NCBI RefSeq assembly: GCF_023541015.1
Contig: NZ_JALNPR010000003.1
Span: 248,001 to 312,000 of the forward strand
DNA from: Marivivens donghaensis
GTDB lineage: Bacteria > Pseudomonadota > Alphaproteobacteria > Rhodobacterales > Rhodobacteraceae
Reading direction: 5' to 3'
Length of the DNA stretch: 64,000 nt
A program made the translations under genes and the position numbers. Shown in pieces: positions 3,385 to 58,381 of the stretch (the first letter of the stretch is position 1; each line of letters starts with the position of its first letter). Below the pieces are notes generated by a model. The model ran no database searches. It worked only from the letters and a program-made list of their open reading frames with translations, and had not been told where the DNA came from.

Positions 3385-4896
3385 ATGCTCGACCTCACTT
3401 ATGAAGCTCCGAAACCCAAAGTGATCGCAGGGGCGACCGGCGATTGGGAACTCGTGATCGGCCTTGAGGTGCACGCGCAGGTCGCGACCAAGGCAAAACT
3501 GTTCTCTGGGGCTTCGACGGAATTCGGCGCAGAGCCGAACTCTAACGTGGCATTCGTGGACGCTGGCATGCCCGGTATGCTGCCCGTCATCAACGAAGGT
3601 TGCGTGGCACAAGCCGTTCGCACTGGTCTGGGCCTGAAGGCAGAGATCAACCTTTGGTCCGCGTTTGACCGCAAAAACTATTTCTACCCTGACCTTCCGC
3701 AGGGCTACCAGATTTCCCAGCTTTACCATCCCATCGTGGGCGAAGGTGAAGTGTTGGTCGAAATGGGCAACGGCACCGCACGTAAGGTCCGCATCGAACG
3801 TATCCACCTCGAACAGGATGCGGGTAAATCGATCCACGACATGGACCCGAATATGTCCTTCGTCGACCTCAATCGCACAGGCGTTGCACTGATGGAAATC
3901 GTGTCCCGCCCTGACATTCGCGGCCCCGAAGAAGCTGCGGCCTATGTCGGCAAACTGCGTCAGATCATGCGCTACCTCGGCACATGTGACGGCAACATGC
4001 AGAACGGCAACCTGCGCGCTGACGTGAACGTTTCCGTCTGCCGTCCCGGTGCCTACGAGAAATTCATGGAAACGGGCGACTTCGGTCACCTCGGCACGCG
4101 CTGCGAATTGAAGAACATGAACTCCATGCGCTTCATCCAGATGGCAATCGACTTTGAGGCCCGCCGTCAAATCGCGATCCTCGAGGACGGAGGCGAAATC
4201 GTTCAGGAAACCCGTCTCTATGACGCGGACAAGAACGAAACTCGTTCGATGCGGTCCAAAGAAGAAGCGCACGATTACCGCTACTTCCCTGATCCCGACC
4301 TCCTCCCGCTGGAGATTGAACAGGCTTGGGTTGACGACATCGCAGCAACCCTGCCCGAACTTCCTGACGAAAAGAAAGCTCGTTTTATCAACGACTTTGG
4401 TCTGTCGGACTATGACGCCTCGGTGCTGACCGCCGAAGTGCCGAACGCGATCTATTTTGAAGAGGTTGCAGAAGGCCGCGACGGCAAACTCGCTGCGAAC
4501 TGGGTGATCAACGAACTCTTTGGTCGTCTAAAGAAAGACGAAAAAGACATCACCGAAAGTCCGATTTCGGCGGCGCGTCTGGGTCAGATCGTTGGCCTAA
4601 TCAAATCTGAAAAGATCAGCGGCAAGATCGCGAAAGACGTGTTCGAAATCGCCTATACCCAAGACCGCGATCCAGAAGAGATCGTTGCGACTGAAGGTAT
4701 GGAACAGGTAACCGACACCGGCGCTATTGAGGCTGCCGTTGACGAAATCATCGCAGCGAACCCCGCTCAGGTCGAAAAGGCGCAAGCCAACCCGAAACTG
4801 GCAGGCTGGTTCGTGGGCCAAGTCATGAAGGCGACAGGCGGCAAGGCAAACCCTGCTGCAGTGAACGCTTTGGTCATGAAAAAACTGGGTCTTTGA
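3385..4896 (+). CDS. gatB: Aspartyl/glutamyl-tRNA(Asn/Gln) amidotransferase subunit B
   Basis: 503 residues. GatB is the kinase/tRNA-binding subunit of GatCAB, which converts misacylated Glu-tRNA(Gln) and Asp-tRNA(Asn) to the correct amide forms. The N-terminal signature IGLEVHAQ is at residues 25-32, followed by the GatB kinase-like core, with a YqeY-like helical tail at the C-terminus (from about 350). A longer in-frame reading from 3289 adds a low-complexity Pro/Arg stretch. The ATG at 3385, preceded by a purine-rich AAAAGGGA about 7 bp upstream, gives the usual family length. gatA and gatC are not in the window, so the subunits are dispersed. Confidence 0.96.
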
Positions 4897-42075: not shown

Positions 42076-42353
42076 CAGACCCTCCTGTTCAAACTCTGCC
42101 CAATTCAGCGGCAAAACATGTCACGGAATGGGCAAATCACAAGCCAAATCCCCTGCAATGTAACGCCTATGTGAAATAGGTCAGCACTTCGTATGCATTT
42201 GCTGCATGGCGGCATTGACGAAAGTCCCAATTGTGCATCCGCAGCATTAGCGCCAAGTTAGGTCCAACGGCAGCAAGATGCCACGGCGAACTACCATACG
42301 CCGAAAGATGAAACAGACCCGCCCGATGCGGGACACGATGAAAAGAGAATGAC

Positions 42354-42560
42354 ATGGCTTACGCAAACGACGTCCGCACTGGTTACACCCCCGCTTTCGG
42401 CGGCTTCTTCGCAAACCTCGCTGATCGCTTCGCCAAGTACAAAGTATACCGCGCGACAATCAACGAATTGTCGCAGCTCTCTGGCCGCGAACTTGCTGAT
42501 CTGGGCATCTCCCGCTCGATGATCAAAAGCATCGCAATCGAAGCGGCCTACGGCGCCTAA
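42354..42560 (+). CDS. DUF1127 small protein (CcaF1-like)
   Basis: 68 residues, a DUF1127 domain: Tyr/Phe-rich N-terminus, an arginine-containing central helix (YRATINELSQLSGRELADLGI) and a short C-terminal helix. The same arrangement, a DUF1127 gene followed by CCUCCUCCC hairpin RNAs, is known from Rhodobacter sphaeroides (RSP_6037, RNA-binding CcaF1). There the gene and RNAs are cotranscribed and stress-induced. The ATG follows AAGAGA. No clear RpoH-type promoter could be assigned in the 278 bp upstream. Confidence 0.88.
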   Translation: MAYANDVRTGYTPAFGGFFANLADRFAKYKVYRATINELSQLSGRELADLGISRSMIKSIAIEAAYGA

Positions 42561-42575
42561 GACATAGAATACGAC

Positions 42576-42600
42576 GGTCCCTCTCCTCCTCCCTGGGACC
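42576..42600 (+). ncRNA. CcsR-like hairpin 1
   Basis: Stem GGTCCC / GGGACC (42576-42581, 42595-42600), six bp; anti-SD loop at 42585-42593. Confidence 0.75.
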
Positions 42601-42607
42601 TTCGACA

Positions 42608-42642
42608 ACGATCTGCTCTCTCCTCCTCCCTGAGCGGATCGT
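42608..42642 (+). ncRNA. CcsR-like hairpin 2
   Basis: Ten-bp stem ACGATCTGCT / AGCGGATCGT with one T-G pair; anti-SD loop at 42622-42630. Confidence 0.85.
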
Positions 42643-42649
42643 GACTAAA

Positions 42650-42688
42650 GCGGCGGCCCCCTTCTCCTCCTCCCTAGGGGGCTGCCGC
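42650..42688 (+). ncRNA. CcsR-like hairpin 3
   Basis: Thirteen-bp stem GCGGCGGCCCCCT / AGGGGGCTGCCGC (one G-T pair), the longest of the set; anti-SD motif at 42666-42674. Confidence 0.85.
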
Positions 42689-42700
42689 AAAAGAATAGAG

Positions 42701-42739
42701 TTTACGGACCCTCCTCCTCCTCCCTGAAGGTCCGTGAAA
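42701..42739 (+). ncRNA. CcsR-like hairpin 4
   Basis: Stem ACGGACC / GGTCCGT extended by TTT / AAA across a one-base bulge. The loop has an extra CCT triplet; core motif 42716-42724. Confidence 0.85.
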
Positions 42740-42741
42740 TA

Positions 42742-42776
42742 GCGGCGGGATCTCTCCTCCTCCCTGATCCCGCCGC
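42742..42776 (+). ncRNA. CcsR-like hairpin 5
   Basis: Ten-bp perfect stem GCGGCGGGAT / ATCCCGCCGC; anti-SD motif 42756-42764. Confidence 0.85.
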
Positions 42777-42790
42777 ACCAAATTCAGATA

Positions 42791-42823
42791 CGGGACCTTC
42801 TCTCCTCCTCCCTGAAGGTTCCG
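42791..42823 (+). ncRNA. CcsR-like hairpin 6
   Basis: Nine-bp stem CGGGACCTT / AAGGTTCCG with one wobble pair; anti-SD motif 42804-42812. Confidence 0.85.
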
Positions 42824-42835
42824 CATAGAAGCAGA

Positions 42836-42858
42836 TGGTCTCTCCTCCTCCCTGACCG
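42836..42858 (+). ncRNA. CcsR-like hairpin 7 (weak stem)
   Basis: Only TGGTC / GACCG (five bp with one wobble) pairs cleanly. Outer AGC / GCT could add three pairs across an internal loop. Motif 42844-42852 is intact, so the loop is kept while the stem is degraded. Confidence 0.6.
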
Positions 42859-42871
42859 GACGCTTCGCCAA

Positions 42872-42904
42872 GCGAATGCTCTCTCCTCCTCCCTGAGCGT
42901 TCGC
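42872..42904 (+). ncRNA. CcsR-like hairpin 8
   Basis: Nine-bp stem GCGAATGCT / AGCGTTCGC with one T-G pair; anti-SD motif 42885-42893. Confidence 0.85.
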
Positions 42905-42913
42905 CGAATAGCA

Positions 42914-42956
42914 CGGCGGCACCCCTCCTCCTCCCGGGTGCCGCCGTTTGCTTTTT
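42914..42956 (+). ncRNA. CcsR-like hairpin 9, also the array terminator
   Basis: Eleven-bp stem CGGCGGCACCC / GGGTGCCGCCG followed by TTTGCTTTTT. The loop is shorter than the others but has the motif at 42927-42935. It serves as terminator and probably contributes a ninth anti-SD RNA. Confidence 0.8.
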
Positions 42957-43010
42957 CATCCCTCACGATTTCGATTGCAGCGACCTGAGACATTTGTCAC
43001 AGCACGAGGC

Positions 43011-56393: not shown

Positions 56394-58286
56394 TTACGCG
56401 GCCCACGCCCACGGACGGGTATGAGCACCAAGGCAGGTCGCGACCGCCTCGTCATCAACCTCGCCCGTTCGGGCCAGTTTAGCGACCAAGCCCAGCTTTT
56501 TATCCTCGACCACTTCGACCACTTCCGCGGCAAGACCCGCAGCCGCCAAAGCTTCGTTATAGACGCGGGTGATCGCACGTTTCCGCAGATCGGGTTTAAA
56601 GATCTTACCAACAGCCGTTTTCGGCAGTTCATCCAATATCTCGAGGTGTTTTGGATGCGCTGCACGTTCGTGGATTTTCTCTTTGGCAAAGGCCATGAGT
56701 TCCTCGACCGTCGCCTCTGCGCCGTCGATCAGTTCGACATAGGCGCAAGGCAGTTCGCCCGCGTAGCTGTCAGGCTGACCAATCGCGCCCGCAAAGGCGA
56801 TTTTCGGGTGACCAGCCAGCGCCTCTTCGATCTCGGCGGGGTCGATGTTGTGACCCGAACGGATGATAAGGTCCTTGGCGCGGCCCGTGATCCACAGATA
56901 ACCGTCCGCATCAATCCGACCCAAATCGCCCGTCCGCAGGTATTGGGTCGGCCCCAGATCACCTGGATAATAGAGGTCAGCGTTCTTTGCGGCCTCAGTA
57001 TAGGTCGCACCCATGTTCACACCGGGGCTCGAGAGGCAAATCTCGCCAATCTGATCGGTACCGCACTCCTCATGCGTGACGTGGTCGAAAATCTTCACGT
57101 CCGTGTAGGGGAACGGGAAGCCGATAGACCCGATCTTCTTTTCGCCATCGGGCGGGTTGATCGACACGAGGCAGGTCGCCTCGGTCAGACCGTAACCTTC
57201 GCAGATGGTGACCTTGGCCGATTGTTCGAACCGTTTATACAGCTCCACTGGCAACGGCGCAGAGCCACAGAAGGCGAGCTGTAGCGACGAGATGTCTGCG
57301 TTCACAGGACGCTGCATAAGAGCCGCAATCGCCGTAGGCACGGTGATCATAAACGTGACCTTGTGGCGTTCGATCAGCTTCCAGAAGTTATCGAACACAC
57401 CGTCGCCACGATAGCCAGCAGGGGTCGGCAGCACATAGTGCGCACCAGAGCCGAGCGACGCACCAAGCGACACAATCGTCGCGAACACGTGGAACAGTGG
57501 CAGCGGGCAGATCTGCACGTCTTCGGGTTTGAAGAGCAGTCGATCACCCAGCCACGCGTTGTAGATGATGCCCGAGTATTTGTGCTGCACGATCTTTGGC
57601 AGACCCGTCGTACCACCCGTATGGAAATAGGCCGCGACACGGTCACCTGTGCTGTCGGCAAAGGTCAGTTTGTCAGGCTGCTTGGCAACCGACTTGTTGA
57701 AATCGATGACTTTCGCGCTGTGCGACACGGGCACCTTCGGGCGGATCAGCGGGATGATCAGCTTTTTCAAGCCGGTCATATAGCGCAGCAAATCCACTTC
57801 AACGACGGTCTGCACGTTCGGCGCAAGCTTGACCGCTTCAGCCGCCTTTTGCGCGATGTCGGTCTTTGGGAAGGCCTTCAGCGTCACGAGAACCTTCGCC
57901 CCCGTTTCGCGCAGGATACCCCCGATATGTTCGGGATCGAGAAGCGGGTTGATCGGGTTCACGATGCCCGCAATCTGACCGCCCAAATAGGTCAGCACGG
58001 TTTCGGTGCTGTTGGGCATCAGATAGGCCACAACATCATTTTCACCGACGCCAAGGCTACGGAACAGGTTCGCCGTGCGGCAGGTTTGGTCATGCAATTC
58101 CGACCACGACAGCGTTTCCGCTGGCGCATCAGGATCAGAGAACATTTGGAACGTCACAGCAGGACGGCCACCATGTGCTGTGGTGGTCCGGTGCAACAAT
58201 TCATACATTGTCTTTGGCTGATTGCGATCTTCCCACGGCTTTTCAGCCATGATCGCGGCACGGTCCGCTAGTGTGGCATAAGTCAT
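56394..58286 (-). CDS. AMP-dependent acyl-CoA synthetase
   Basis: 630 residues from the ATG at 58286, which has GGAGGAG 5 bp upstream. ANL-superfamily adenylating enzyme. P-loop-like HTGGTTGLPKIV near 223-234, GYGLTEAT near 370-377 (A5), TGDLGRIDADGYLWITGR near 450-467 and the catalytic Lys in KTAVGKIFK near 578-586. Resembles medium/long-chain acyl-CoA ligases; substrate not decidable. It is followed by a terminator, with about 70 bp to the ABC gene on the other side. Confidence 0.9.
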   Translation of the reverse strand: MTYATLADRAAIMAEKPWEDRNQPKTMYELLHRTTTAHGGRPAVTFQMFSDPDAPAETLSWSELHDQTCRTANLFRSLGVGENDVVAYLMPNSTETVLTYLGGQIAGIVNPINPLLDPEHIGGILRETGAKVLVTLKAFPKTDIAQKAAEAVKLAPNVQTVVEVDLLRYMTGLKKLIIPLIRPKVPVSHSAKVIDFNKSVAKQPDKLTFADSTGDRVAAYFHTGGTTGLPKIVQHKYSGIIYNAWLGDRLLFKPEDVQICPLPLFHVFATIVSLGASLGSGAHYVLPTPAGYRGDGVFDNFWKLIERHKVTFMITVPTAIAALMQRPVNADISSLQLAFCGSAPLPVELYKRFEQSAKVTICEGYGLTEATCLVSINPPDGEKKIGSIGFPFPYTDVKIFDHVTHEECGTDQIGEICLSSPGVNMGATYTEAAKNADLYYPGDLGPTQYLRTGDLGRIDADGYLWITGRAKDLIIRSGHNIDPAEIEEALAGHPKIAFAGAIGQPDSYAGELPCAYVELIDGAEATVEELMAFAKEKIHERAAHPKHLEILDELPKTAVGKIFKPDLRKRAITRVYNEALAAAGLAAEVVEVVEDKKLGLVAKLARTGEVDDEAVATCLGAHTRPWAWAA

Positions 58287-58381
58287 GCCGTCTCCTCCCC
58301 TTGTGCGCATTGACGCGCGATTAACAGGAAAGATGGGGTATGCCCCCCCATGAACGCAAGTATGACGCTGCGAAAATGCGA

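Follow-up and report, generated by a model that had tools for sequence, protein, structure and literature searches.

The locus described here occupies a small part of the window, by which we mean the whole stretch of 64,000 nucleotides of Marivivens DNA that was analysed. It begins with a short gene (42354..42560, forward strand) for a DUF1127 protein of 68 amino acids, of the CcaF1 type (Pfam PF06568, 49.4 bits). This protein is 97% identical to its counterpart in Paradonghicola geojensis (NCBI: Marivivens geojensis, Rhodobacterales), the closest named relative among the matches listed. A divergent Mrp/ApbC-like gene, the matches of which fall below curated cut-offs, lies upstream, and a gene for a LysE-type transporter lies downstream, beyond the array that is our main subject. 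The array follows the DUF1127 gene on the forward strand, the stem of its first hairpin starting 12 nt 3' of the stop codon. It contains nine exact copies of CCTCCTCCC, each within a hairpin loop of 11–13 nt and each borne on a different stem (9/9). These are hairpins 1 (42572..42604, loop motif 42585–42593), 2 (42608..42642, 42622–42630), 3, with a strong GC stem (42650..42688, 42666–42674), 4 (42701..42738, 42716–42724), 5 (42742..42776, 42756–42764), 6 (42791..42823, 42804–42812), 7 (42828..42866, 42844–42852), 8 (42872..42904, 42885–42893) and 9 (42913..42957, 42927–42935). Loop-to-loop spacings are 37, 44, 50, 40, 48, 40, 41 and 42 nt. The motif occurs 10 times in the window, where 0.41 occurrences are expected and at most three were seen in 100 dinucleotide shuffles, and the array folds with an energy of −176.5 kcal/mol (shuffles, −115.7 ± 5.1; n = 100; z = −11.9). 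Motif count, folding and Pfam thus confirm what a sequence-only reading of this DNA had proposed, namely nine hairpins with the same loop on unrelated, complementary stems after a DUF1127 gene. That reading also took one unit, at 42836–42858, to have a weakened stem and to be perhaps decaying. This did not hold: hairpin 7 consists of two 5-bp helices around a 3 × 3 internal loop, it is paired in relatives too, and a similar unit with other letters occurs in one congener (G005). Two further copies of the motif were considered and rejected. At 4299, where the tenth in the window lies, fold prediction places part of the motif itself in base pairs, and an isolated copy elsewhere in the genome (C5:345065, reverse strand) is a GGGAGGAGG start site read on the opposite strand.

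The hairpins are separated by linkers, two of which are long and unpaired. One is A-rich (42689..42700) and follows hairpin 3; the other is A/T-rich (42777..42790) and follows hairpin 5. By analogy with the processing of the CcsR RNAs of Rhodobacter sphaeroides, both are putative sites of cleavage by RNase E. Among the five genus genomes that have nine exact loops, four have their two longest unpaired linkers at these places, after hairpins 3 and 5; in the fifth (G006), only the second of the two is long. This arrangement suggests mature RNAs of 3 + 2 + 4 hairpins. Hairpin 9 is followed by a T-run, and the last unit of the array therefore doubles as a terminator hairpin, combining an anti-Shine–Dalgarno (anti-SD) loop and a terminator in one structure. 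A remnant of a two-unit duplication (42684..42855; 88-bp period, 77% matches) is the only one the array retains, and so the array looks old and diverged.

Two stretches of the array match the Rfam model ar14 (RF02344; threshold 58.8 bits): 42566..42690, spanning hairpins 1–3 (72.5 bits), and 42824–42952, spanning hairpins 7–9 (67 bits), both on the forward strand. The Rfam model for CcsR1 (RF02791) does not reach its threshold at the array (best 53.2 versus 65.3 bits). All nine loops contain CCUCCUCCC (9/9), and the stems vary yet remain paired, as is typical of the ar14, or ‘cuckoo’, RNAs. A short DUF1127 gene lies directly upstream on the same strand, as it does in the CIN1 arrangement (PMC10253847). 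The proposed homology to the DUF1127/CcsR locus of R. sphaeroides is thereby borne out, and we class the locus as a CIN1-type (CcaF1/CcsR, cuckoo RNA) operon, though not as CcsR1 itself. In R. sphaeroides, CcsR1–4 are reported to be co-transcribed with ccaF1 from an RpoHI/HII promoter, and CcaF1 to bind RNA and contribute to the maturation of the CcsRs (PMC10253847); processing is attributed to RNase E, followed by PNPase. A target reported for the CcsRs is flhR, and effects on glutathione and on pyruvate dehydrogenase are described as well (PMC8307010). In both loci, hairpins that display CCUCCUCCC in their loops come after a small DUF1127 gene. The loci differ in that the R. sphaeroides RNAs are described as two-hairpin molecules, whereas here nine diverged hairpins stand 37–50 nt apart. 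In CcsR1-like arrays of related genomes, unlike this one, spacing alternates between short and long, and some include near-identical tandem copies. The ar14/cuckoo RNAs, among them NfeR1 of Sinorhizobium meliloti, also have an identical loop and free stems. Cuckoo RNAs are described with two to four hairpins each (PMC4504443), however, and NfeR1 as a trans-acting sRNA, whereas the nine hairpins of Marivivens lie in a DUF1127 3' UTR. The anti-SD loops of NfeR1 are reported to silence ntrB, its three loops acting redundantly (PMC10746234).

The loops are constant and the stems are not, from which the sequence-only reading concluded that structure is under selection. Comparison among congeners bears this out. 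Four of the seven genus genomes were used, leaving out G003 and G001, which are near-duplicates, and G005, which has seven units; the comparison covered pairs one to six of every stem (n = 324). Pairs were unchanged in 175 comparisons, changed on both sides with pairing kept in 102, changed on one side in 20, and unpaired in 27, the last by a simple register in which some are bulges. Exchange of stem arms agrees. In the six genomes with nine hairpins, the mean energy is −18.5 kcal/mol for native stems (54 units), −12.1 when the two arms come from different species (n = 234), and −6.7 when they come from different units of the array (n = 432). Hairpin 8 was nearly unaltered by the cross-species exchange and hairpin 9 changed little, because both are conserved. 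More widely, all 493 units tested in 80 DUF1127 loci form at least eight pairs, compared with 63% of 487 swapped units. Only one loop among 61 units in the genus is altered; this is the third unit of G001 (locus L009), where a single letter has changed and the stem is still paired. We propose that the stems need only pair, and that the hairpins are interchangeable doses of one seed.

How many doses a genome carries varies widely. The array is present in all seven genus genomes searched, with nine exact loops in five, eight plus the altered one in G001, and seven in G005, so that six of the seven have nine hairpins. Of 248 genomes in the family, 179 contain one or more pairs of exact loops spaced 20–50 nt apart. 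Among the best 80 of 524 DUF1127 matches, the number of exact loops downstream is zero in 7 loci, 1–4 in 21, 5–8 in 29 and 9–14 in 23, and the first loop lies within 200 nt of the DUF1127 stop codon in 73. These counts, and the fact that nine is usual in the genus, go against the earlier suggestion that the array is an expanded version of a four-unit R. sphaeroides locus. Nor is the premise supported: RS0680a (CcsR1) alone is reported to have two stem loops (PMC3927594), and four such RNAs would therefore correspond to about eight hairpins. In the five genomes of that genus with the best Rfam CcsR1 match, the locus that was read holds 8, 8, 8, 10 and 14 exact loops. An array of nine units is of ordinary size. 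Dense arrays may be confined to Rhodobacteraceae: a three-loop pattern found one positive among 385 genomes of the class, the Marivivens genome itself, with a pattern so strict that four other family members in the sample scored negative and rhizobial ar14 was not picked up either.

Upstream of the DUF1127 gene are three elements on the forward strand. The first is a palindrome, TGCTGCATGGCGGCA (42200..42214), which departs at a single position from the PhaR sequence in the literature, CTGCNNNGCAG; its core, CTGCATGGCGG at 42202, differs by that one change from the CTGCNNNGCAG-type palindrome. The second, CAATTGTGCATCCGCAGCATTA (42228..42249), is operator-like, overlaps a −35-like TTG, and has the sequence of the PhaR site at S. 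meliloti mmgR, lengthened by one spacer base. The third is a candidate −10 element, GCCAAGTT (42252..42259), for which the family consensus is CCATNTT. By the sigma-32 consensus, this CCATNTT-like site may be a −10 of the RpoH type, albeit a weak one in the window, where it agrees with CCCATNTT at six of eight positions. CCCATNTT-like 8-mers (at least 6/8) lie about where they would be expected in 55 of 74 loci, compared with 9 of 74 shuffled ones. Such an element agrees with the report that ccaF1–CcsR has an RpoHI/HII promoter (PMC10253847).

These elements form a recurrent block, TGCTGCATRGCAGCATTG, about 13 nt, ATTGTGCANNYGCAGCAT, and then the CCATNTT-like site. Among the best 80 of 524 loci, ATTGTGCA is found upstream of the DUF1127 gene in 53 and GCAGCATT in 54. 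In 64 of these 80, the 450 nt upstream contain CTGCN3GCRG (control stretches from the same loci, 4/80), and in 55 they contain the strict form, CTGCN3GCAG (control, 2/80). The palindrome lies 20–40 bp before the TTGTGC element in 64 loci, and precisely 28–29 bp before it in 55, compared with none of the 80 controls. In the Marivivens genome the full composite block occurs once, at the array. A TTGTGC..GCAGC element also lies upstream in six loci with CcsR1-like arrays, a further likeness to the CIN1 locus of R. sphaeroides. Of the seven loci that have no exact loop, three carry both promoter elements, and the other four show neither the palindrome pairing nor the second element; at L123 and L133, the DUF1127 gene has no exact loop behind it and neither pattern before it. 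Ten loop-bearing loci are without the strict second element, and several of these show a variant of it.

The PhaR protein of R. sphaeroides is reported to bind CTGCNNNGCAG, and that of S. meliloti to bind the mmgR promoter at CAATTGTGCACCGCAGCATTA, with gel-shift binding described as ‘efficient’ (PMC12542648). The mmgR gene is reported to be negatively controlled by PhaR (also termed AniA), and its dyad to sit between −35 and −10 (PMC8401924), as does the second element in Marivivens. MmgR (alpha-r8) thus resembles the array in having a promoter with a TTGTGC..GCAGCA element. It differs in being a single 77-nt sRNA, and in its spacer, which is three nucleotides in the mmgR and R. sphaeroides PhaR sites but four at the Marivivens array and, indeed, in 67 of 67 sites of the second operator. 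This spacer is the main doubt concerning PhaR. Among the literature matches listed, none connects PhaR with the ccaF1–CcsR promoter, with DUF1127 or with anti-SD RNAs; one, on a Rhodovulum genome (PMC9230146), mentions DUF1127 and PhaR in passages unrelated to each other. Judged by its letters, the promoter looks wired to PhaR, the repressor that senses PHB, and such wiring would be new.

A hairpin with the same loop also occurs beside the genes for PHB granules. At C3:464185 (locus L001, motif from 1502), a CCTCCTCCC hairpin lies between phaP and phaR, 19 nt after the stop codon of the phasin gene. The order is two CTGCN3GCAG palindromes, the phasin gene (PF09361, 30.1 bits), the hairpin, and phaR (PF07879). 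An Rfam scan of this phasin 3' UTR returned nothing above threshold. PhaR is present in 88 of 90 family genomes, that of Marivivens included. From the 88 phaR loci, 86 were parsed and 64 phasin 3' UTRs were delimited by a rule of thumb. The exact loop occurs in 12 of these, the loop with at most one mismatch in 32, and the core TCCTCCC in 40, where mononucleotide shuffles predict 0.07, 2.0 and 1.0, respectively; the reverse strand of the same 64 contains no exact or one-mismatch loop. One phasin 3' UTR (L242) has two consecutive exact-loop hairpins before phaR. The palindromes recur as well: TGC..GCA half-sites lie upstream of both phaP and phaR in Marivivens, and YTGCN3GCR precedes 41 of 86 phaR genes, compared with 7 of 86 stretches inside phaR. 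The 60 nt that precede the conserved PhaR motif include at least six letters complementary to the loop in 55 of 86 loci (shuffled, 11/86); none of 80 DUF1127 upstream regions does. This complementarity may be only a sign that phaR has a strong SD sequence. Another place with two palindromes, C3:193614, was considered as a phasin promoter and dismissed, none of the seven ORFs of at least 100 amino acids listed there being phasin-like by eye.

The loop is complementary to an extended SD sequence, GGGAGGAG. In the Marivivens genome, GGGAGGAG followed by ATG at 3–10 nt occurs at 11 places, compared with three for a reversed-pattern control. Ten of the 11 are starts of genes recognisable by Pfam; the other (L314) was set aside for want of a placeable gene start. 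Five of the ten genes are for uptake components (an ABC permease, an ABC solute-binding protein, a branched-chain ABC ATPase, an NMT1-like binding protein and a TRAP DctM permease). The other five specify an acyl-CoA dehydrogenase, an AMP-binding enzyme, a zinc-type dehydrogenase, a 2Fe–2S protein and a metallo-beta-lactamase-fold protein. The AMP-binding enzyme is a predicted target inside the window, its GGGAGGAG SD and start lying at 58284–58299 on the reverse strand. A comparison SD, AAAGGAGA, occurs at 17 places, from which 15 proteins were scanned, two very short frames being left out. These include an ABC-2 type permease, three ribosomal proteins and one protein without a Pfam match, but no recognised uptake component. 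The difference, 5/10 versus 0/15, is significant (Fisher p = 0.005), for a small set defined by one strict pattern and sorted by hand from Pfam names. A strong SD may by itself mark uptake genes, and in one Rhodovulum genome ~16% of genes are reported to be for transport (PMC9230146). The targets reported for the R. sphaeroides CcsRs, unlike the predicted set, are not mainly transporters.

The account that we consider probable is that the locus is a CIN1 operon, the 3' UTR of which is processed to anti-SD sRNAs that silence mainly uptake and catabolic mRNAs, under an RpoH-like promoter with PhaR-type operators. We infer a single transcript, the DUF1127 mRNA, whose 3' UTR holds the nine hairpins and ends in a terminator. 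It would probably start at the RpoH-like promoter, where one PhaR-type operator lies upstream of the −35 and the other between −35 and −10. RNase E probably cuts the A/U-rich linkers, releasing sRNAs of two to four hairpins, perhaps 1–3, 4–5 and 6–9. Their CCUCCUCCC loops would pair with extended SD sites (GGGAGGAG) and block translation, mostly of mRNAs for solute uptake and catabolism.

Three alternatives concern what the hairpins do. That the array is a protein-coding repeat on either strand can scarcely be credited: one congener does have reverse-strand stretches that run for up to 126 codons without a stop, but open frames are not alike between congeners, for which reason reverse-strand coding was rejected, and in addition the loop spacings break the reading frame and the stems co-vary. 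The hairpins might, instead, mainly stabilise or terminate the DUF1127 mRNA, with the loop incidental. The strength of the stems and the terminator-like form of unit 9 fit this, yet the loop keeps its letters as the stems diverge (in the genus, one loop of 61 is altered), and its core is found again behind the phasin gene, which is unrelated; protection alone is very unlikely. Rather less improbable, but still unlikely, is that the loops are a sponge, titrating either SD-like sequence in bulk mRNA leaders or the DUF1127 protein, and silence no chosen mRNAs. The dose suits a sponge (nine copies here, 26 in one relative), as does the reported RNA binding of CcaF1 and its role in CcsR maturation (PMC10253847). 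Its relatives argue otherwise, since the three loops of NfeR1 are reported to silence named mRNAs, redundantly (PMC10746234), and the R. sphaeroides CcsRs to have a named target in flhR (PMC8307010).

What is known of such operons, then, is the CIN1/CcaF1–CcsR arrangement with ar14-type hairpins; the proposed connection to PHB is the new part. With an RpoH-like promoter and PhaR-type operators, both stress and the relief of PhaR by PHB granules would raise output from the operon. Taken together, the promoter palindromes, the loop in phasin 3' UTRs and the SDs of the uptake genes suggest a possible PHB-gated RNA brake on carbon uptake. In its general form, which we put forward tentatively and hold to be well short of probable, PhaR would control dispersed anti-SD hairpins in Rhodobacteraceae, in the DUF1127 array and the phasin 3' UTR alike, and so brake uptake and catabolism by array dose. 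When carbon is stored as PHB, PhaR would leave the DNA and the hairpins would shut off translation of uptake and catabolic mRNAs, perhaps also that of phaR, the SD of which is complementary to the loop. The number of copies in the array would set the strength of the brake. It is about as credible that the operon responds to stress alone, the TGC..GCA palindromes serving another regulator and PHB playing no part. The reported dependence of the ccaF1–CcsR promoter on RpoHI/HII (PMC10253847) and the invariant four-nucleotide spacer of the second element favour stress alone. Set against these are the strictness of the first palindrome (CTGCN3GCAG in 55 of 80 loci), the resemblance of the second element to the PhaR-bound mmgR site (PMC12542648), and the half-sites before phaP and phaR described above.

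If the connection to PHB is true, a puzzling group of stress sRNAs with identical seeds gains an input from metabolism and probable targets, both of which could be tested in the laboratory model R. sphaeroides, and many genera would have, in the hairpin of the phasin 3' UTR, an sRNA coupled to PHB. With loops that stay fixed, stems that vary freely and 0–26 copies, the arrays also provide a natural series for study of the tuning of sRNA seed dosage. The largest (L046, G170:C1) has 26 loops and is built on a 140-bp block of three hairpins repeated 6.5 times at 97%; another array in the family has 14 loops with a 114-bp block.
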